DNA of 22,398 bases from a virus. The DNA lies in IMG/VR virus record IMGVR_UViG_3300009537_000197, positions 1 to 22,398 of that record. One strand, written 5' to 3'. Position numbers and translations under genes: made by a program. The stretch's first letter is position 1; each line of letters starts with the position of its first letter. This document shows, in pieces, positions 1,219 through 11,842 of this stretch. The notes under the pieces are model-generated. The model did not search any database and was not told where the DNA came from. It saw only the letters and a list, made by a program, of their open reading frames with translations.

Positions 1219-1475
1219 GTAAAGACAAAGTGATAAGTCTTGCCGAGCGTTTTGAGGATGCAACGAAGTGGTCAGTCGAGGATATGCTTTTAGATGCCTT
1301 AGAGAGGGTGCGGAGTGGGGAGAAAGCGAATAAGAAAGCGATAGTTCTTTTCCTTGACGATACAGAGGATAGATATCTCCATGGGTTTAGCCAGGCGGGG
1401 ATGGCTATGTCGGAGTGTGTGTTGCTTTGTGAGATGGCCAAGACGATGTTCAAGGACGAGATGGGATATGAGTAA
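1215..1475 (+). CDS. Hypothetical 86-aa protein upstream of terL
   Basis: Predicted mainly alpha-helical and charged (starts MSKDKVISLAERFEDATKW). It overlaps the preceding microprotein by 4 nt and the terminase start by 8 nt (ATGAGTAA), so the three are probably translated as a coupled unit. No catalytic motif or membrane segment is visible. I do not recognise a named family. Its place directly before terL suggests an accessory head or packaging role, but this is inferred from position only. Confidence 0.7.
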   Translation: MSKDKVISLAERFEDATKWSVEDMLLDALERVRSGEKANKKAIVLFLDDTEDRYLHGFSQAGMAMSECVLLCEMAKTMFKDEMGYE

Positions 1476-3201
1476 AGAGATATCCCCCGAGCACATCGAA
1501 ATGCTTAAGGATTTTGCGAAGGATTTTACATATTACGCGACTAAGTGTTTGAAGATTCAGACTATGGATGCAAAGCTGATAAACTTCAAGTTCAATATCA
1601 GCCAGCGCGTGCTTATGGCGATATATGATCATATTGTCGCGAGTGGTCGATTGAAGAGGGTAGTTATTTTGAAGGGCCGGCGCCAGGGGATGTCTACCTT
1701 TACTACGGGCCGAAATTACTGGAAGACCTCTACGAATTACAATCGGTATGCTGTTACGGTAACGCACGAGCCCGATGCTACTTCGTTTCTTTTCAAGATG
1801 GTTAAGCGTTTCCATGGTCATACACCAAAGGCATTCCAGCCGGAGACGAGATATAGTAATCAGAAGCTTTTAGAGTTCAACTCTGAGGACAATACAGGCC
1901 TCGACTCCGCATTCAGGGTTGGTACGGCTGGGAAAGAGGATTTTGGATCGGGCCAGTTGATACATTATTTACATTTATCAGAATTAAGTAAATGGCCTAC
2001 TCATACCCAGACAGAGCTTATAACTTCCCTTTTTCAGTGTGTACCCGATAATCAAGATACAGAGATTGTTTTGGAATCAACGGCCAAGGGTATAGGTGGT
2101 GAGTTTTATTCGAGGTTCTTTGGTGCCAGGTATCAGTACGAGGTTTATTTGAAGGATGACAATACTGTGACCTTCCGGTGTACGATCAATGAGTCTGCCG
2201 ACGAGGACAATGAGTTTTCTGCTGTATTCCTGCCATGGTTTGTATTTGAGGATTATGTCAGGACCCCGGCAGAGGATTTTATTAGAACGGAAGAAGAAGA
2301 AGTGATGGTAAAGAGGTATAACCTGAGTGATGAGCGCCTCGCATGGCGAAGGTGGGCGATTGTAAATAGATGTGGTGGTATTAAAGAGACTTTTTTTCAA
2401 GAATATCCAAGTTGCAGTAAAGAAGCTTTTTTGGTATCTGGTACCCCAATATTCAACAATATCCAGTGCCAGGAACTCAAGGAAGGATGCTCTCTCCCTA
2501 TTGCCAGATATAATTGCCAGATTGCTTCCGGGTCATGGATTGCTCACGAACATGGTTCTTTGCGCGTTTGGGAAGAGCCTAAAGTGGGAAGGGCGTATGT
2601 TATCGGTGCCGACGTCGCCGAGGGGCTGGCAAATGGGGACTTTAGCTGTGCCGACGTACTTGACCATAGGACGGGGAAGCAAGTGGCCCAGTGGCACGGA
2701 AAATGTGATGCTGATGAATATGGGCGAATCCTTGGGTACCTGGGACAGAGATACAATCACGCCTGGCTGGGTGTCGAGAGGAATAACCACGGCCTGACGA
2801 CACTGACAATACTGCAGCAAGATAAGTACAAGCGCCTCTATGTGGAGAAAATAGAAGAACCCCCGGCCAAGCCCCGGAAGAGATTTGGCTGGCTGACTAC
2901 AAGATCTACCAAGCCCCTCGTTATTGACTGGCTCATCGAAGAGATGCGGGAAGAGTCCCATGGAATTGTTTGTGCCGAGACATTTGAAGAGATGATGAGC
3001 TTCAAAAAGCAGGACAATGGAGATATGGAGGCCGATGCCGGTATGTTTGACGATAGAGTTATGAGTAGAGCCATTGCCGGAGCGGTGCGTAGAAAAAGCC
3101 CTCTTCCTTCTCAGCGCCTACTAGAGGGCAAGACTAACAATGCCCCGAGGGAGAGAGGGGTAAGACGCAATAAGAAACCACCAAAAGGGAGCTGGACTTG
3201 A
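1468..3201 (+). CDS. terL: Terminase large subunit (packaging ATPase/nuclease)
   Basis: Motor that translocates phage DNA through the portal and cuts it. The ATPase half shows a Walker A-like KGRRQGMST (residues 69-77), a Walker B-like strand IHYLHLSE (165-172, with Ser before the catalytic Glu) and the coupling motif ESTAKG (203-208). The RNase H-like nuclease half shows its acidic residues in GADVAEG (Asp382), GVERNN (Glu437) and FDDRVMS (Asp528/529). At 577 aa it has a normal length. I chose ATG 1468 because it makes an 8-nt overlap with the previous gene; the frame stays open upstream to an ATG at 1354, but those 38 residues lie wholly inside the previous gene and look unlike a terminase. 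No intein or intron interrupts it. Confidence 0.95.
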   Translation: MSKEISPEHIEMLKDFAKDFTYYATKCLKIQTMDAKLINFKFNISQRVLMAIYDHIVASGRLKRVVILKGRRQGMSTFTTGRNYWKTSTNYNRYAVTVTHEPDATSFLFKMVKRFHGHTPKAFQPETRYSNQKLLEFNSEDNTGLDSAFRVGTAGKEDFGSGQLIHYLHLSELSKWPTHTQTELITSLFQCVPDNQDTEIVLESTAKGIGGEFYSRFFGARYQYEVYLKDDNTVTFRCTINESADEDNEFSAVFLPWFVFEDYVRTPAEDFIRTEEEEVMVKRYNLSDERLAWRRWAIVNRCGGIKETFFQEYPSCSKEAFLVSGTPIFNNIQCQELKEGCSLPIARYNCQIASGSWIAHEHGSLRVWEEPKVGRAYVIGADVAEGLANGDFSCADVLDHRTGKQVAQWHGKCDADEYGRILGYLGQRYNHAWLGVERNNHGLTTLTILQQDKYKRLYVEKIEEPPAKPRKRFGWLTTRSTKPLVIDWLIEEMREESHGIVCAETFEEMMSFKKQDNGDMEADAGMFDDRVMSRAIAGAVRRKSPLPSQRLLEGKTNNAPRERGVRRNKKPPKGSWT

Positions 3202-3305
3202 AAGAGCAATTTAGAGCCACAATCATCGACGCTCTTAAGAAACTCGAAGGATTAAAGACTATGCTGCACAAGATTCTGGATATAGTCGAGAAGTTGCCGG
3301 GGTGA
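3198..3305 (+). CDS. Possible 35-aa coupled peptide
   Basis: A TTG start overlaps the terL stop (TTGA) and follows the purine-rich AAAAGGGAG at 3183-3191 with 6-nt spacing, a good Shine-Dalgarno arrangement. The product starts LKEQFRATIIDALKKLEGLK and looks like a single amphipathic helix. It ends 9 nt before the promoter at 3314. No homologue is recognised; the helix could pack on a terminase or be non-functional. The ribosome binding site is the main support. Confidence 0.4.
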   Translation: MKEQFRATIIDALKKLEGLKTMLHKILDIVEKLPG

Positions 3306-3313
3306 AAAAATAG

Positions 3314-3341
3314 TTGACATTTTATTTCAATACGATATAAT
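3314..3341 (+). promoter_or_regulatory. Consensus sigma70 promoter
   Basis: Perfect -35 TTGACA (3314-3319) and perfect -10 TATAAT (3336-3341) separated by 16 bp, in A/T-rich DNA. Transcription should start at about 3348. This is the only consensus promoter I see in the window, and it points into the non-coding segment and the small gene at 3801, so that block can be expressed by host RNA polymerase independently of the late operon. Confidence 0.85.
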
Positions 3342-3347
3342 CCGGGG

Positions 3348-3460
3348 AAATATATAGAAAAAGTCATTACGGGACTTAGCAGAGCAAGAATGTTTTTGCC
3401 GAAAGGCCGAAACTCTAACGCCCTGATAGATGCCGTAATCATCTTGATGGGCGTTTTTTA
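3348..3460 (+). ncRNA. Short structured leader/sRNA ending in a terminator-like hairpin
   Basis: From the predicted start the RNA folds into a 5-bp hairpin (AAGTC 3361-3365 with GACTT 3373-3377), a longer arm closed by AGAG/CTCT (3381-3384/3413-3416) and capped by GCC-GAAA-GGC (3398-3407), then the hairpin with T-run at 3418-3459. It is either a free small RNA of about 110 nt or an attenuating leader (riboswitch-like) for the downstream RNA and gene. It matches no riboswitch consensus that I know. Confidence 0.5.
3418..3459 (+). terminator. Intrinsic terminator or attenuator
   Basis: ACGCCC (3418-3423) pairs with GGGCGT (3449-3454) and, inside, AGATG (3428-3432) pairs with CATCT (3440-3444); a run of six T (3454-3459) follows. 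The two stems are separated by a symmetric TGAT/TGAT internal loop that could form tandem G-A pairs. It sits about 75 nt after the predicted transcription start, the position of an attenuator. Confidence 0.7.
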
Positions 3461-3484
3461 TTGCCTAAAATAATGTTTATGAAG

Positions 3485-3790
3485 GCACCATAGGGCCTGT
3501 GACTCCACCAAAATTGACTTACTATGGGACCCCCTCAAAGGTCAAACCGCACTCCTAAGTCTGAAGATGGGAGGGGAGGCAGGAAGTGGACTGTCTAAAG
3601 TAGCAGACATCTAGTCATTCTCCACTGGGATGATTAGCCCATAAACGATACCTTGGCTCCGTTGAGTGCTTGTAGGTCGTTTATAGGAAGGTGAACTCTC
3701 TCTTGTTTAAGGGGGACTTAGCCTCCTATGCCCAAAACTCCTCCTTTCACCAAAGAGTGCTTATTGTTCTTACTTAGAATATTAATCAAG
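3485..3790 (+). ncRNA. Candidate novel structured RNA with pseudoknot
   Basis: About 300 bases without a credible ORF but rich in helices: CCATAG 3488-3493 with CTATGG 3522-3527; TGTCT 3592-3596 with AGACA 3605-3609; ATAAACGA 3641-3648 with TCGTTTAT 3677-3684, extended by CC/GG; GGTGAA 3690-3695 with TTCACC 3746-3751. AGTGGA 3585-3590 pairs with TCCACT 3621-3626, which lies in the loop of an 8-bp helix (3611-3618 with 3630-3637), giving an H-type pseudoknot. I looked for group I intron core elements and the 5' elements of tmRNA and RNase P RNA and found none. It may be a stand-alone RNA or the 5' leader of the gene at 3801. Boundaries are approximate and the folding was done by eye. Confidence 0.5.
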
Positions 3791-3800
3791 GAGTAAGTAA

Positions 3801-4010
3801 ATGCAATTCAACAAACAAGCCCAGGCAGCAAGAGAGAGAGGTATAAGAGATTATGAAGCCGGACTAAGTTTAGATCAAAACGCTTTTAGATATTTCGCTA
3901 ATTCTCAAGGTGCTATTTCTCTCATGGCACAGTGGGATGCTGGCTGGAAGATAGCTGAACTTAAAGATAAAGACCCCGAGCAATATAAAAAATTGATGTC
4001 CACCCAATAA
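3801..4010 (+). CDS. Rmf/CrpP-like small protein
   Basis: 69-aa protein with a strong ribosome binding site (AAGGAG at 3788-3793). The pattern RGIRDYEAGLS, then an Asn-aromatic segment, then QWDAGWKIAEL resembles the small ribosome modulation factor (Rmf)/CrpP fold, in which a Gly-containing helix, an N-P-Y-like turn and a W-x2-G-W helix recur. Known Rmf proteins inactivate ribosomes by dimerisation in stationary phase; CrpP-like homologues occur widely on mobile DNA. Here the canonical Pro-Tyr is replaced (NAFRYF), so the match is fold-level only. It lies in a unit with its own promoter (3314) and terminator (4086-4131), which suggests an accessory gene expressed independently of the virion genes. 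Confidence 0.55.
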   Translation: MQFNKQAQAARERGIRDYEAGLSLDQNAFRYFANSQGAISLMAQWDAGWKIAELKDKDPEQYKKLMSTQ

Positions 4011-4085
4011 TCCACTTGCTTTTCTCACCATAATTTGATATAGCTTAAACCACATACACCCTACACCTCATCAACACGCGAGGAC

Positions 4086-4131
4086 AAAGGCCATTTAAGG
4101 AGAATTTCTCCCTTATTTGGCCTTTTTTTTT
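4086..4131 (+). terminator. Strong intrinsic terminator before portal gene
   Basis: AAAGGCCA (4086-4093) pairs with TGGCCTTT (4118-4125), with an inner GGAGA/TCTCC stem (4099-4103/4107-4111), and the hairpin runs into nine consecutive T (4123-4131). The portal Shine-Dalgarno begins only about six bases later, so the portal gene cannot have its own promoter after this terminator and must rely on read-through or antitermination. Upstream, 4011-4085 shows only a weak promoter-like pair (TTGCTT, 17 bp, TATAGC). Confidence 0.85.
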
Positions 4132-4147
4132 GCTTTAAGGAGAGTCC

Positions 4148-7060
4148 ATGCAAGCAGGCGCAATACCTATAGGCACGAGTGTTGGGAGTTCAGGCCTTAT
4201 AAGCGTCAGGAATAACCAGCAACTTGACGAGATGAACCGTCAAAGATTTTCTCGCGCAGTCACTAAGAACCCAGACGAATCACTTACCCATCTTTCCGGC
4301 TATCTCAAGAACTATTGGGAAAAAGCCAAACAAGCAAAAAGAACAATCGAGAACAGGCTTGTCAAGTGCAAGCGTAATGTCGAAGGCGAGTACGATGCCG
4401 GGAAGCTGGCTGAAATACAACAAATGAGTGGCTCGGAAGTCTTTATGATGATCACAGCCCAGAAGAAGCGTGATGCTAAGGCTTGGATTATGGATATTCT
4501 GAGGCCTGTGGGAGCTTCTGAGCGACTTTATACCCTCGCCCCTACACCTATCCCTGATTTACCTCAAGATATCGTAGAAGAGCTTGAATCTCGTGTTATG
4601 AACGTCATGATTCAAGACTTCATTGTTCAGTCTGCAATGGAGGGTCAAGAAATAGATCCCGACCAGTTGCCGGGGATTATGGAAGGCATGGTAGCCCAGG
4701 TTAAAGAGTTGGTGCAGGACGAGGTAGACGAGAGAGCCCTGGAAGTTATCGAGAAGATGAGCAGGAAGATTGACGACCAGTTAGTAGAAGGCAAGTGGTA
4801 CAAGGTTTTCAAAGATGTAGTAGATGATTTCTGCACCTATCCTTCTGCAATTATGAAGGTGCCGGTTTTAAAAAGAAAGAAGAAGAAGACCTACGCACCA
4901 GACCCCATGACCGGAAAGATAGGAATAGTGGTAGAGAAAAAAATTTCAGTATGCTTTGGAAGAACAAGCCCTTGGGACTTCTATCCTTTTGCCGATGCTT
5001 TTATATCCGATGAAGGATACCTGCAGGGCGGATGTGTAGAAAGACATCGCCTTACCAGAAAAGAATTGCAGTCGTTTATAGGCGTTCCTGGATTTAAAGA
5101 GGAAAACATCAGGAAGGTACTCGAAGAATATGGAAAAGGTGGTCTCCGTGAATGGCTATGGACTGACGCAGAGAGGGCAACCCTTGAAGGAAAACCAAGT
5201 TACATCCCATCAGAGAAGATCGATGCTCTTCAATATTTCGCTTCTATTCCCGGAAATCTTCTATTGGATTGGGGTATGGAACCTGACGAAGTCCCGGACG
5301 CAGACATGGATTACGAAGTTGAGTGCTGGCAGATAGGAAACTATGTGATAAAGGCCGTAAATACTCCTGATAAGTTGGATAGGACACCTTATCTCATATC
5401 TTCTTTTGATAAGGTGCCGGGTTCTATTTGGGGCAATGCGCTACCTGAATCCATAGAAGACACGCAGACAATGTGTAACGCAGCTGCAAGAGCTGTTCAC
5501 AATAACATGGGAATAGCCTGTTTGACAGGGGATACGGTTGTTTATCGTCACGAGCGCAAAGGCGCAACGAAACAGAGAAAGCATGATGATCACAAATTGG
5601 TTGAAGTGACTCTTGATGAACTATGGGAACAGAAGCATAAGAAAAATAGTGGACTAAGACGAAACTGCTTACGGTCACTGGATGAGTCAACCGGTGAGTT
5701 TTATGGAAATCGTGTAGTTGATATTTTTAATAACGGAATTAGAGATGTATTCCGTGTGACTACAGCAAAGGGATATTCTATCAAGGCCACAATGAATCAT
5801 CGGTTTATGAGCGACGATGGTGACTATAAATTCCTTGAAAACTTCTCAATAGGCGATTTGATGGCAGTCAATGGCACATCTTTAACACCTCGACCTACAT
5901 GTATCGACTGCGGTGCAGGGATAAGTAAAAAACCTACAGCAGTGCGCTGTAAATCTTGCGCAGCAAAAATAAACACATGGAATGTAAAACAGGCAAGGGA
6001 AGCCCTCGATAATAAGGACGCTTCTGAGACTACAGCAAGAGGCAGAAAGCTTGTCAGGGACCAAATGAAAGACTCTTGTGAAGAATGTGGGCGCACAGTC
6101 AGGCTGCATATTCACCACATGGACAAAGATCCTATGAATTGCGAGCCAAGTAACTTAAAGACCCTCTGTGAACCATGTCATAAACAATGGCATGTTAGGC
6201 ACGATAATCTTGGAAACTCCTTAAGGCATGTCTTTGTAGATTATGACGCTATCGTCAGCATAGAGCCTCTCGGGAAAGAACGTGTCTTCGACCTTCAAAT
6301 GGAGGCTCCTGATCATAACTTTGTGGCAAATGGTTTTGTATCTCACAATTCTGGTCCCCAGGTAGAGATAAACACCGAAAGAGTAGACAACCCGGACGAT
6401 ATCTGGCCGTGGAAAATATGGGAAGCCACTGATGATCAGATGGGTAGCGGTGCTCCTGCAGTTAGGTTCTATCAGCCCTCTATGCATGCAGAGCCTCTTA
6501 TGGCTATCTACGACAGGTTTAAGAAAGAGGCGGACCATCATTCCGGGATACCGGCGTTTGCCCACGGCGATACGCAGGTTGGCGGCGCGGGCAACACGTC
6601 AAGTGGATTAAATATGCTCATGTCTGCTGCAGCGAGAGGAATTAAGGCAGCAGTGTCTAATCTTGACATGGACATAATCGCGGAAGGCGCCGAAAGAATG
6701 TACGACCACAATATGCTTTACGACTTAGATGAAAGTCTGAAAGGTGATGCAAGGGTTAAGGCCGGCGGTAGTGCGGCACTGATAGCAGCAGAGCAGTTGG
6801 CGGTCAGGCGCGGTGAGTTCCTTGACAAAACGAATAACGATATAGACATGACAATCATAGGCCTTAACGGAAGGGAGTACCAGCTTAGAGAAGCGGCGAA
6901 ATCCGTAGAGCTCGACCCGGACGAATTGATAAAAGGCGGCGGGATGGCGCTACAAGGGCAACCCACGGGGCAACAAGGGAAGCCGAAGGTTTTGCTCCCG
7001 GATGGGTCAGAGGCAGGTGGTGACAAAGTTAAAATAGATAGAAATGATGGAGGCACATGA
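4148..7060 (+). CDS. Portal protein precursor with intein
   Basis: Encodes 970 residues, of which 277 (458-734) are an intein; the mature portal would be 693 aa, close to P22-type portals. The portal forms the dodecameric ring at one capsid vertex through which DNA enters. The N-terminal part is helix-rich (MNRQRFSRAVTKNPDES, then KNYWEKAKQAKRTIENRL), and the C-terminal extein contains the portal-like ADHHSGIPAFAHGD and a Gly-rich loop followed by SSGLNMLMSAAARGIKAA. The start ATG has a good AAGGAGAG site at 4136-4143. The exteins join as NNMGIA + SGPQVEIN, giving a seamless portal sequence. The gene follows terL in order but is separated from it by the promoter/ncRNA/terminator cassette. It overlaps the next gene at its stop. 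Confidence 0.92.
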   Translation: MQAGAIPIGTSVGSSGLISVRNNQQLDEMNRQRFSRAVTKNPDESLTHLSGYLKNYWEKAKQAKRTIENRLVKCKRNVEGEYDAGKLAEIQQMSGSEVFMMITAQKKRDAKAWIMDILRPVGASERLYTLAPTPIPDLPQDIVEELESRVMNVMIQDFIVQSAMEGQEIDPDQLPGIMEGMVAQVKELVQDEVDERALEVIEKMSRKIDDQLVEGKWYKVFKDVVDDFCTYPSAIMKVPVLKRKKKKTYAPDPMTGKIGIVVEKKISVCFGRTSPWDFYPFADAFISDEGYLQGGCVERHRLTRKELQSFIGVPGFKEENIRKVLEEYGKGGLREWLWTDAERATLEGKPSYIPSEKIDALQYFASIPGNLLLDWGMEPDEVPDADMDYEVECWQIGNYVIKAVNTPDKLDRTPYLISSFDKVPGSIWGNALPESIEDTQTMCNAAARAVHNNMGIACLTGDTVVYRHERKGATKQRKHDDHKLVEVTLDELWEQKHKKNSGLRRNCLRSLDESTGEFYGNRVVDIFNNGIRDVFRVTTAKGYSIKATMNHRFMSDDGDYKFLENFSIGDLMAVNGTSLTPRPTCIDCGAGISKKPTAVRCKSCAAKINTWNVKQAREALDNKDASETTARGRKLVRDQMKDSCEECGRTVRLHIHHMDKDPMNCEPSNLKTLCEPCHKQWHVRHDNLGNSLRHVFVDYDAIVSIEPLGKERVFDLQMEAPDHNFVANGFVSHNSGPQVEINTERVDNPDDIWPWKIWEATDDQMGSGAPAVRFYQPSMHAEPLMAIYDRFKKEADHHSGIPAFAHGDTQVGGAGNTSSGLNMLMSAAARGIKAAVSNLDMDIIAEGAERMYDHNMLYDLDESLKGDARVKAGGSAALIAAEQLAVRRGEFLDKTNNDIDMTIIGLNGREYQLREAAKSVELDPDELIKGGGMALQGQPTGQQGKPKVLLPDGSEAGGDKVKIDRNDGGT
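5519..6349 (+). mobile_element. HNH-containing intein in portal gene
   Basis: In-frame insertion of 277 codons, residues 458-734 of the precursor. Block A is CLTGDTVVY, with the nucleophile Cys458; block B has T548 and H551 in TMNHRF; the C-terminal block reads VFDLQMEAPDHNFVANGFV and ends in His733-Asn734, followed by extein Ser735. These are the residues needed for self-splicing, so it looks active. The central insert carries two CxxC pairs (CIDC, CKSC) followed by an HNH nuclease (CEEC, LHIHHMDKDP, SNLKTLCEPCHKQWH), which would cut intein-less portal alleles to promote homing. No stop or frameshift interrupts it. Confidence 0.92.
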
Positions 7061-7284
7061 TGGGGATGATATTCAATGTTGACGGCAGGGGCGGTAACGC
7101 AATAGAAGTGATGATGACAAGCGAGTACGCAAAGCGTTTTGCTGATGATCTTCGTGAGGCAGTACATAAGCTGGAAGGCAAGCAGGAGTATGTCATGTTC
7201 AACCTGGTAGGGACTCCGGTAGCAGATAAAGACGTGATGCTCTCTGAGATACAGGACGGCAATAAGAAGATCATGGTGCATTGA
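7060..7284 (+). CDS. Hypothetical 74-aa protein after portal
   Basis: Starts MGMIFNVDGRGGNAIEV and appears to be a compact alpha/beta protein with no recognisable motif. Two adjacent ATGs exist, at 7057 and 7060; GGAGG at 7049-7053 is six bases from the second and only three from the first, so I chose 7060. The portal stop codon overlaps both. It was probably acquired as part of the head module; function unknown. Confidence 0.7.
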   Translation: MGMIFNVDGRGGNAIEVMMTSEYAKRFADDLREAVHKLEGKQEYVMFNLVGTPVADKDVMLSEIQDGNKKIMVH

Positions 7285-7544
7285 TGAAGGTATTTACCCC
7301 TGCAGAGAAGACACTGATGGCGATGGTCGCCCTTGAAAGGGACGAAGACTTCGTGGAAGTTATGACCTACCTGGAGGCCAATGAAATATACCTGGCCAAG
7401 CTCGCCTGTAAGATGCCGGAAGAGAGGGGTTCAGCTTTATGCCAAGGGGGGTCGGCAACGATTACGTCCTTCATAGGGCAAGTATCAGAAGCAAGAGAGT
7501 CCTTGGAAAAATTAAGGTCCAAGGAAGCTAAAAAGCAGAAGTAG
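7284..7544 (+). CDS. Hypothetical 86-aa helical protein
   Basis: Begins MKVFTPAEKTLMAMVALERD and ends in a Lys-rich tail (KLRSKEAKKQK). Its ATG overlaps the previous stop by one base (TGATG), the usual coupled arrangement. Largely helical and charged. Small helical proteins between portal and scaffold genes occur in many phages, but I cannot assign a role. A TTG at 7281 would add one residue only. Confidence 0.7.
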   Translation: MKVFTPAEKTLMAMVALERDEDFVEVMTYLEANEIYLAKLACKMPEERGSALCQGGSATITSFIGQVSEARESLEKLRSKEAKKQK

Positions 7545-8637: not shown

Positions 8638-8640
8638 ACA

Positions 8641-8662
8641 AGAGCAGCCTCCAAGGTGCTCT
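8641..8662 (+). promoter_or_regulatory. Hairpin between scaffold and capsid genes
   Basis: AGAGCA (8641-8646) pairs with TGCTCT (8657-8662), right after the scaffold stop codon and about 20 bases before the capsid gene's GGAGG. No T-run follows, so it is not a standard terminator. It could stabilise or process the capsid mRNA. Confidence 0.45.
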
Positions 8663-8691
8663 AAAACAATTTAACTTTGGAGGAAAAGAAA

Positions 8692-11297
8692 ATGGGAATC
8701 GGACTAGCAGCAGGGCATCCGAATTATAGTTCGGACGGAGATTCAAAATTTATCCCTTGCCTTTAAATTGGGGATGTAAAACCCTCTCTGAATAACTGGA
8801 ACCGAACTTCGGGTGTCGGAACCAGATGAAACCGCAAAAATAAAAAAACTAACGCAGTTCGGAGGAATCCATGAAGCGACTAAGTTGGAAATACATAGCA
8901 GGTCTAATTGATGGGGAAGGTTGTTTGGACTTTCAGCAAATAACCAACAAGAACTATCCAGGAAGGAAGTACTTAACACCACGGGTAAGATTAACATTCG
9001 CAACCCCTGGGTTACAGGTCTTAGAAATGATGCAAGCCAATCACGGAGGCTCATTAAATCACAGGACAGTAGATAATCCTAACTGGAACGACTCAGCAAC
9101 CTGGCAGATACAGGGAAGGAAAGTTAGACCTTTTATTCAAAATATCGTTAATCACTTGATTATAAAGAAAGAACAGGGGAAGTTCCTGATCTGGTTTATA
9201 GACAACGTGATGGGCAAGCACCAAACAAAGGAAAATAGGGAGTGCGCCAAGAACGAATTGAGTGCTATGAAGGCGGATCAGCAGAGACTAAGCGAGAGGG
9301 CAGCGCGAAAGATTCAAGGCTTGATTAAGGAAAAAGAAGAATCAAAGTCTTGGTCTGAAAATTACGAAGCTTGTACTGAATGTGGCACAACAAATACACG
9401 GCATGGGTCAAAAGGTAAATGTGTTAATTGTGACAAGAGGTACAAAAGGAAAGCTCGTAGCGCTGATGCGATAGTCCACCCGGCTTAAGAGCCGGCAGGA
9501 AATATGGAGCACGAATTTGCTTGTCAAGTTCTACGCTGCCACAGTTTTCGCGGATATCTGTAATACCGAGTACGAGGGTAAGTAATTTTGCTCTCGCTAA
9601 ACTCCTTTAATTGCGGGGATACCCTTAGAGCCCTTACTACGATACCATCCGGTAACGAGATGGCGTTCCGTAAAAATGTAAGGGATTGGGCAATCCGCAG
9701 GCAAGCCTCCTGTAACCAGGTGGAAGCTTCAACGACTAGAGTTAGTAGCCTAAGTCTTAAAGATATGGTAAACGCTCCACGAATGGGGAGATTTATTACT
9801 TGCGAGATTAAAAAGACTGGTGATATAGTACGCTCCAAACTAAATGGAGGTAGTGCTATGCAAGGGAAAAGAAAGCTTGACGTTGTCTTTACTAAAGAGA
9901 TGCTGGAAGAAGATTATCTGGAACTGAAGTCAATGTTGAAGATTTCCAAAAAGTATGGGGTTAGCAAAAAAACTATACTGAATTACATGAATAAGTTTGG
10001 GATATCTAGGAGAGAATGGGTAGTGCCAGTGAAAGATGTTCGTTTGCTCGCTGTCCAAGGATTAGACTCTAAAGAGATCGCAAAAGAATTAGGTGCATCC
10101 AGAACAACAGTGAATAAAGTAGCCAAGGCAAATGATATCGAAGTGGTCAATAGGTATCATAAAGGTTATATTGTCACTCACAATGGATATACCATGGTTC
10201 AGCGCCCAAAACATGTACAAGCAGATAGTAAAGGTTATGTAAGGCTCCACCGTTTATTGATGGAAGAGCACATAGGCCGCACGTTAGATTTATGTGAGGT
10301 AGTCCACCATATTAACGGGGATAAGTCTGATAACCGAATTGAGAACCTTGAAGTGATGATGAAAGCAGACCATGTTAGACATCACCATACTGGGAAAGTA
10401 GGAAGAGGCCCTAGCAAATCACCAAGAAAAAACGCGAGAGTAAGTAAGATATAGTCTGGACTTGCCCGAGAGGGTAAGAAGGTAGGATAAAGAGCCTACT
10501 GATAACAAACGGAAATAAAGCAAATGGGGGACAAGGTCCACATCAGAACTGTCCCCGATGTGCAAATCAAGACGTACAAGAAGGGAATGAAGCTCGTCTA
10601 TGAAAACCTGGAAAGTGACAGCGTTGAGCTGAACATCGACCAGGGTGAGTATTTCGGCTTCCTGGTTGACAGCGTTGACGCATACCAGTCAGATCTCAAT
10701 CTGATTGATACATGGTCGGCAGACGCGGCAGAGCAGATGAAGCAGAAGATCGACACCGGTATCCTTGGTGCCATCTACGCCGATGCTCACGCCAGCAACT
10801 CAGGTTTGACAGCAGGGGCAGATTCAAGCTCCTACAACATGGGAGTAACTGGTACGCCGGTTGCAGTCACAAAGTCAAACATCCTTGACTACCTGGTAGA
10901 CATGGGTAGTGTACTGGACGAGCAGAACATACCTGAGAGCGACAGGTTCGTTGTAATCCCTACCTGGATGGCCGGCCTCATCAAAAAGTCCGACCTGAAA
11001 GACGCCTCTCTCAGCGGTGATGGTACTTCCATGATGCGTAATGGAAGGCTCGGTATGATCGACAGGTTCACCCTGTACTCATCTAACAACTACACCGCTG
11101 TCACAGATGGCGCGAACAGTTGTTACAACACCATTTTCGGCCACAAGTCTGCGACCACGTTTGCAGCTCAGATGACCGAGATGGACACCCTTAAGGCAGA
11201 GTCGGCCTTTGGTCAACTTGTCCGTGGTCTTAACGTCTACGGGTACGAGACAATCAAAACCGAGTCTCTTGGTAACTTCTACTGCTACAAAGGTTAA
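8692..11297 (+). CDS. Major capsid protein, three exons split by two group I introns
   Basis: The coat protein is encoded by exon 1 (8692-8757, 22 codons), exon 2 (9499-9579, 27 codons) and exon 3 (10512-11297, 261 codons plus stop), joined to give 310 aa. The joined N-terminus reads ...DSKFIP-EIWSTNLLVKFYAATVF...NTEYEG-EIKQMGDKVHIRT..., which restores the beginning typical of this HK97-like coat family: the N-arm, the EIWS segment and the GDKVxIRT strand. Start ATG 8692 has GGAGG about 8 bases upstream. Without splicing, translation would stop two codons after exon 1 (TGC CTT TAA) and right after exon 2 (AAG TAA). Splice sites were placed from the IGS pairings and the coat reading frame. Confidence 0.88.
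8758..9498 (+). mobile_element. Group I intron 1 in capsid gene
   Basis: 741-base intron. The exon end AUCCCU (8752-8757) pairs perfectly with the internal guide GGGGAU (8770-8775), with the diagnostic U-G wobble at the 5' splice site. P7 can form from GACUA (8878-8882) and UAGUC (9472-9476), the latter in an S-like element GATGCGATAGTCC. A P9-like hairpin CCGGC/GCCGG (9480-9484/9491-9495) precedes the terminal G at 9498. Upstream, CTGG..CCGA pairs with TCGG..CCAG around an ACTTCGGG-type loop (about 8798-8825). The remaining core helices are less clear to me. It carries a LAGLIDADG ORF. Confidence 0.82.
8871..9488 (+). CDS. LAGLIDADG homing endonuclease in intron 1
   Basis: 205-aa homing endonuclease that would cut intron-less capsid genes so that repair copies the intron. 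The signature IAGLIDGEG lies at residues 9-17. Only one copy of the motif is evident, so it probably acts as a homodimer. A C-terminal extension carries CTEC (168-171) and CVNC (184-187), a zinc finger after a Lys/Glu-rich helix, likely an added DNA-binding module. GGAGG precedes the ATG. The start codons overlap the P7 5' strand and the stop (TAA, 9486-9488) falls in the P9 loop, so the coding frame runs through part of the ribozyme core. No frameshift is seen. Confidence 0.9.
   Translation: MKRLSWKYIAGLIDGEGCLDFQQITNKNYPGRKYLTPRVRLTFATPGLQVLEMMQANHGGSLNHRTVDNPNWNDSATWQIQGRKVRPFIQNIVNHLIIKKEQGKFLIWFIDNVMGKHQTKENRECAKNELSAMKADQQRLSERAARKIQGLIKEKEESKSWSENYEACTECGTTNTRHGSKGKCVNCDKRYKRKARSADAIVHPA
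9580..10511 (+). mobile_element. Group I intron 2 in capsid gene
   Basis: 932-base intron with textbook elements. P1: exon CGAGGGU (9573-9579) with guide GCUCUCG (9590-9596), U-G at the splice site. P10: 3' exon GAAAU (10512-10516) with AUUUU (9585-9589). P4: UGCGG (9612-9616) within AATTGCGGGGA, with CCGCA (9695-9699) within AATCCGCAGGCAAGCC. R element GCTTCAACGACTAGA (9726-9740); S element AAGATATAGTC (10446-10456); P7 is GACUA/UAGUC. P9 is CTTGCCC-GAGA-GGGTAAG (10461-10478) with a GNRA loop. The intron ends in G at 10511. It encodes an HNH endonuclease. Confidence 0.93.
9858..10454 (+). CDS. HNH homing endonuclease in intron 2
   Basis: 198-aa protein. Two helix-turn-helix-like segments (about residues 19-50, SKKYGVSKKTILNYMNKFGI, and 60-96, SKEIAKELGASRTTVNKVAK) precede an HNH_3-type nuclease: GYVRLHRLLMEEHIGR, then VVHHINGDKSDNRIENLEVM (about 127-168) and DHVRHHH, with His150/151, Asn159 and Asn163 as the core. 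It is expected to cleave intron-less capsid genes. I chose ATG 9858 for its GGAGG; the frame is open upstream to 9588, but that part is the ribozyme core (P4, P6, P7). The stop TAG lies inside the S element. Confidence 0.92.
   Translation: MQGKRKLDVVFTKEMLEEDYLELKSMLKISKKYGVSKKTILNYMNKFGISRREWVVPVKDVRLLAVQGLDSKEIAKELGASRTTVNKVAKANDIEVVNRYHKGYIVTHNGYTMVQRPKHVQADSKGYVRLHRLLMEEHIGRTLDLCEVVHHINGDKSDNRIENLEVMMKADHVRHHHTGKVGRGPSKSPRKNARVSKI
10512..11297 (+). CDS. Major capsid protein exon 3 (bulk of coat protein)
   Basis: Contains the coat domain proper, from EIKQMGDKVHIRTVPDVQI to the C-terminus ending NFYCYKG. The ATG at 10524 is an internal Met that gene callers could mistake for the start: it has no convincing Shine-Dalgarno, and four coding codons (GAA ATA AAG CAA) precede it immediately after the intron 2 end. 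Confidence 0.88.
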   Translation, partial: EIKQMGDKVHIRTVPDVQIKTYKKGMKLVYENLESDSVELNIDQGEYFGFLVDSVDAYQSDLNLIDTWSADAAEQMKQKIDTGILGAIYADAHASNSGLTAGADSSSYNMGVTGTPVAVTKSNILDYLVDMGSVLDEQNIPESDRFVVIPTWMAGLIKKSDLKDASLSGDGTSMMRNGRLGMIDRFTLYSSNNYTAVTDGANSCYNTIFGHKSATTFAAQMTEMDTLKAESAFGQLVRGLNVYGYETIKTESLGNFYCYKG

Positions 11298-11812: not shown

Positions 11813-11842
11813 AAGGGCCCTGCTCCGGTGGGGCCTTTTCTT
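11813..11842 (+). terminator. Hairpin with T-rich tail
   Basis: AAGG-x-CCC (11813-11820) pairs with GGG-x-CCTT (11830-11837) with one G-G mismatch and a 9-base loop, followed by TTTTCTT. It ends only ~10 bases before the next gene's AAGGAGG, so it likely trims expression between neighbours instead of ending the operon. Confidence 0.6.

Follow-up and report, generated by a model that had tools for sequence, protein, structure and literature searches.

In phage lambda, the strong sigma70 promoter PR' is followed by a short leader RNA (the 6S RNA), by the intrinsic terminator tR' and, downstream, by the structural genes. In the ColE1 system, RNA I and RNA II make kissing contacts through 7-nt loops that are fully complementary over 7 nt. 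More generally, in phages that have been studied well, late gene expression is controlled positively, either through an antiterminator working at a late promoter or through an activator (PMC10695390). Morons are recognized by the presence of their own promoter and terminator, and are transcribed independently of the phage genes (PMC6469090). In the phi29 group, the loops of the pRNA pair over 3-4 nt (PMC12670572).

We analysed a virus record that is a linear fragment of 22,398 bases (hereafter the window, i.e., this stretch of DNA over its whole length). On its + strand are found, in this order, a small terminase-like gene, terL, a 35-aa ORF, the block studied here, portal, a scaffold-like gene, the major capsid gene region, and further structural genes. 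TerL is ~50% identical to its nearest relatives in viral contigs and 33% identical at best to known phages, and a search for closer relatives via portal led again only to the contig of L019, the closest relative. An earlier note had described the block as a self-contained, moron-like cassette, in which a promoter, two foldable RNA segments, a small gene and a terminator would form one unit. The features of the locus are the following:

1468-3201, + strand: terL (terminase large subunit), upstream flank, with PHROG terminase matches and 21 relatives by tblastn
3198-3305, + strand: 35-aa ORF, sequence LKEQFRATIIDALKKLEGLKTMLHKILDIVEKLPG, with a TTG start overlapping the terL stop
3314-3341, + strand: sigma70-type promoter, TTGACA-16-TATAAT, 12/12, start expected near 3348
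3348-3460, + strand: predicted RNA of ~112 nt, terminated and folded into three hairpins
3361-3377, + strand: hairpin H1, AAGUC[AUUACGG]GACUU
3387-3416, + strand: hairpin H2, with a GAAA tetraloop
3418-3460, + strand: hairpin H3, which is intrinsic terminator 1, with the loop CCGUAAU (3433-3439) and a T6 tract
3462-3800, + strand: non-coding stretch of 339 nt, ahead of the small gene
3770-3800, + strand: weak 7-bp hairpin by sequence, TTACTTA/TAAGTAA, whose loop holds the AAGGAG ribosome-binding site
3801-4010, + strand: ORF of 69 aa, with a weak resemblance to ribosome modulation factor (RMF; Pfam PF04957)
4066-4131, + strand: intrinsic terminator 2 (4086-4131), preceded by a small hairpin, CCTC/GAGG
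4148-7060, + strand: portal gene with an intein and an HNH domain, downstream flank

The perfect sigma70 promoter of the earlier note is confirmed and is unique in the window. When both strands were scanned, 3314-3341 was the sole site reaching at least 11/12, and 20 shuffles of the window gave 0.00 sites of 12/12 per strand by chance. Between this promoter and portal, we found no other strong promoter and two intrinsic terminators. The first one, which had been overlooked, has a hairpin of -15.4 kcal/mol and a T6 tract; as it ends at 3460, the promoter would first yield an RNA of ~112 nt. Concerning the two foldable segments, the proposal holds for the first one, 3348-3462 folding more stably than its shuffles (z -2.4), and is not supported for the second one (3462-3800), whose folding energy is ordinary.

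The loops of H1 (AUUACGG) and H3 (CCGUAAU) are perfectly complementary, over 7/7 nt. A 7-nt loop match was reached in none of 20,000 dinucleotide shuffles, and 6 nt in 24 of them, a count to be taken as a guide and not as a strict probability, because the match was noticed before being tested. Scanning the whole window returned complementary 7-nt loops only in overlapping pieces at 3348-3460. The same loop sequences can alternatively form a nested helix in place of the terminator, the energy of this fold being -28.8 kcal/mol versus -29.2 kcal/mol for the terminator fold. In the partition function, the terminator stem has a probability of 0.57, versus a median of 0.998 when the 5' part is shuffled; a probability as low as 0.57 is given by 5.8% of these shuffles, i.e., the bistability is significant at the ~6% level only. 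Thus, the loop match is well supported and the switch less so (0/20,000 shuffles versus 5.8% of shuffles). The loop contact may take place within one molecule or between two, the sequence being compatible with both. In ColE1, the kissing loops are on two RNAs made from opposite strands, whereas here both are in one RNA.

This ~112-nt RNA with matching loops is a candidate new RNA, drawn from one sequence only. Using gathering as well as permissive thresholds, Rfam gave no match at the site apart from SpF43, which is a chance match, and an RNA-pattern search of viral contigs and genomes retrieved no relative, so that there is no covariation for this RNA. Two sets of hits were discarded: the 17-mer shared by L084 is a chance match in an unrelated context, and L086-L093 lack the two hairpins. 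Kissing loops of at least 6 nt were found in none of the terL-portal junctions of the relatives. A tRNA origin of the RNA received no support. A group I intron origin was likewise unsupported, RF00028 remaining unmatched in 3200-4160 at E values up to 5, unlike the capsid-region introns near 9570 and 10331, which were detected.

The phi29 pRNA (RF00044) is also a phage RNA of ~110-120 nt carrying two mutually complementary loops (7/7 nt here). However, the present RNA differs from it by its fold and by the 7-nt length of its loop match, its phage has an ordinary large terminase, and in 3200-4160 the RF00044 covariance model was not matched at any E up to 5. We consider this comparison as suggestive only. 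It is very improbable that the ~112-nt RNA would form dimers or rings by self-association via its perfectly matching 7-nt loops, like the phi29 pRNA, and would serve packaging or head assembly. Such a role would account for its place between terminase and portal and, if true, would make it the first RNA of the packaging type to come from outside the phi29 group.

Downstream of terminator 1, the 339-nt stretch had been seen as part of a large unknown RNA, a proposal that we do not take as demonstrated: its folding energy is indistinguishable from chance (z -1.6 as a whole, 6/100 shuffles being equally good, and z -0.7 to -1.0 for its 170-nt pieces) and is unexceptional also compared to the rest of the window. 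On the + strand, ORFs of 40 aa are absent from this stretch, and neither an Rfam match, nor a tRNA, nor a relative was found for it.

The 69-aa ORF that follows is preceded, 7 nt upstream, by the AAGGAG ribosome-binding site, and its codon use is within the range of the other genes of the window. The RMF family is the only Pfam profile matched by the protein (residues 4-52 versus positions 4-48 of 53), with 14.2 bits and E 0.046, which among 24,736 models is a chance event in a few per cent of queries; the curated cut-off of PF04957, 27.9 bits, is not reached, the score being about half of it. Hence, the Rmf-like pattern previously proposed is present, but weak. As RMF had been named beforehand from the sequence alone, the family match gains a little extra weight. 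The protein is similar to RMF and CrpP (the comparison being made with RMF only) by its small size, its probably helical nature, and its RG-x5-AG and W-x2-GW pattern. When aligned with an approximate E. coli RMF sequence, R-x-Y-x-AG and W-x2-GW-x-A line up. Unlike RMF, the protein is longer, scores far under the family cut-off, and has AF at the proline-tyrosine position. A low-confidence model, computed from the single sequence without alignment, consists of two long helices (pLDDT 74, pTM 0.30), and a Foldseek search with this pTM 0.30 model gave no match at E <= 0.001 and listed no RMF, a result that is neutral for or against RMF.

Protein relatives of the 69-aa product were found neither in viral contigs, nor in genomes, nor in phages. 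The best local match among the relatives, in L056 (11/21 residues), falls at the C-terminal end of a scaffold-like protein and may be due to chance. PF04957 was detected in none of 50 related records, by a less sensitive search that also missed the weak match of the window itself, and the literature searched provided nothing useful on RMF-like or CrpP-like phage proteins. Because the RMF profile match is sub-threshold, we only infer that the protein could bind ribosomes, and we propose, at most as a hypothesis, that it may act like RMF on the host ribosome. If it acts on ribosomes, the phage would possess a tool for idling host translation.

The strong terminator announced ahead of portal is indeed present at 4086-4131, with a hairpin of -19.7 kcal/mol and T9 (z -5.2 for 4020-4140), and its T-tract ends 5 nt ahead of the portal ribosome-binding site. 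Among the relatives, the terL-portal gap is variable, from -58 to 3,839 nt. In L019, terL is followed by three small ORFs, the last of which is like the 35-aa ORF, and then by only ~80 nt up to portal; the block is therefore absent at this junction, as the earlier note had expected of a related phage. This last L019 ORF (38 aa, 7176-7292), just before the junction, resembles the 35-aa ORF by eye and was not found by tblastn. No good junction promoter is present in L019, and no credible DNA relative of the block was found in phages and plasmids.

On the other hand, the elements flanking the block recur. Over 44 junctions (window included), we counted 13 promoter sites of at least 10/12, whereas shuffles gave 3.1 and the opposite strand 3. 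Promoter-like sites lie directly after the terL stop in L012, L016, L027, L058, and L061 and, at 9/12, in L004 and L008, while those of L034, L036, and L039 overlap a small coding frame or decayed coding sequence. Similarly, strong terminators stand directly before portal in 15/41 junctions, i.e., those with room for a terminator, window included, versus 17/323 other gene starts. The T-tracts of these pre-portal terminators adjoin the ribosome-binding site and so leave no room for another promoter. The succession of promoter, short RNA, terminator, and portal is found in L027 and L029, without any gene of at least 35 aa between the junction promoter and portal in L029. Many junctions encode a ~50-aa protein of no Pfam family, and tRNA genes (Met, Tyr, Thr) are located between terL and portal in L025 (4421-4585), in L065 (7582-7667), and at the L033 junction. 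Because the promoter and terminator sites recur in relatives with different cargo, the window is one variant of a common layout made of a promoter, variable cargo, a terminator, and portal. The cassette probably sits inside such a pre-existing junction, both of its ends belonging to the junction architecture.

Several minor observations were made at these junctions. The ~50-aa gene (L002 3317, L032 6947, L034 6671, L056 4833, L059 6671, L065 7419, L070 8133) often precedes a terminator abutting the portal ribosome-binding site. Near-tRNA sequences are present at the terL-portal junction of L002 and L023. Just before the portal terminator of L027, L029, L034, and L039, a small hairpin is followed by ACCA/ATTA and GAA, which could be what is left of tRNA 3' ends, or else a leader motif. 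The terL of L056 (1803-4739) is apparently interrupted by an intein, its 978-aa frame containing a long insert after GSGQLIHYFHG.

The reading we lean towards, to which we give nearly an even chance, is that the terL-portal junction constitutes an accessory site behind a promoter, and that the short RNA is a leader, or attenuator, located upstream of both an accessory gene and the structural operon. A host-type RNA polymerase would start at ~3348 and produce the ~112-nt RNA, which would fold into its three hairpins and stop at the intrinsic terminator ending at 3460. Its outer hairpins could kiss over 7 bp, or the loop sequences could pair as the alternative helix, which means that the RNA could exist with or without the terminator. 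The polymerases reading through would enter the 339-nt untranslated stretch and then the RMF-like gene, which is moron-like accessory cargo and encodes a protein possibly acting on the host ribosome. Portal transcription, whether coming from the junction promoter or from upstream, would have to pass the pre-portal terminator; the structural genes would need read-through of terminator 2, either in the manner of lambda PR'-6S RNA-tR' and Q or as partial read-through. We infer all these steps, i.e., transcription, attenuation, read-through, and protein function. Two more intrinsic terminators, at 11,836 and 12,854 of the window, separate structural genes and are not followed by any strong promoter; the presence of such terminator-like hairpins inside the structural operon suggests that read-through may be general in the late region.

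We read the promoter and the 112-nt RNA as a late leader with attenuator because late genes are positively controlled in well-studied phages and because portal transcription has a terminator to pass. Like a Q-type late leader, the locus has a strong promoter, a short RNA, and an intrinsic terminator ahead of late genes. Unlike the lambda late leader, the present one is located between terL and portal, contains matching loops, and is separated from portal by an extra gene and a second terminator. In addition, the lambda leader works with the antiterminator Q, whereas here the record is only a fragment and the early region is outside the window.

It is unlikely that the block is a classical moron, whose promoter, gene, and terminator would have been acquired together and would be self-expressed, for instance in a lysogen, to alter the host. 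As in a moron, conserved structural genes enclose an extra gene that has promoter and terminator motifs around it and is missing in a relative (L019), and the cargo of this junction varies among relatives, down to the tRNAs of L025, L033, and L065. The insertion relative to L019 thus stands from the earlier proposal, but the self-contained character of the unit is not supported: the promoter and terminator are probably not the cassette's own, recurring as they do at junctions without the 69-aa cargo, and the block is not one unit, because the terminator at 3460 lies between the promoter, with its proximal RNA, and the 69-aa gene. Codon use does not distinguish this gene either. With a perfect promoter ahead of it and a compact RNA of three hairpins that ends in an intrinsic terminator, 3348-3460 could also be an independent gene for a trans-acting sRNA, operating by base pairing, protein binding, or self-association, the 69-aa gene then being a separate one served by a weak promoter or by read-through; but no relative, Rfam match, or target is known for such an RNA, and we regard this reading as quite unlikely.

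Compatible with any of these readings is the idea that the 339-nt stretch derives from decayed genes or tRNAs and has no function as RNA, an idea which is possible, if somewhat doubtful. Its ordinary folding energy and the genes and tRNAs that relatives have at this junction are consistent with it. However, no tRNA-like remnant was detected in 3462-3800 even at a relaxed 80% threshold, the gene that follows the stretch has a good ribosome-binding site, and phage genomes rarely retain several hundred idle bases. As for the leader reading, the layout it implies, with moron-like cargo and a late leader, is of an already known kind. If the RNA is an attenuator, a group of uncultivated phages may separate packaging from the expression of structural genes by means of RNA structure, and this at a junction where accessory genes and tRNAs accumulate as well.

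Further downstream in the window, portal contains an intein with an HNH domain (5520-6370), and the major capsid gene (8640-10524) seems to be interrupted by group I introns, so that both genes bear homing elements. The intron matches, at 9570-9791 (E 2.7e-7) and, for a weaker 3' end, at 10331-10478 (E 0.28), are both under the Rfam gathering score, and they are accompanied by a LAGLIDADG ORF (8871-9488) and an HNH ORF.
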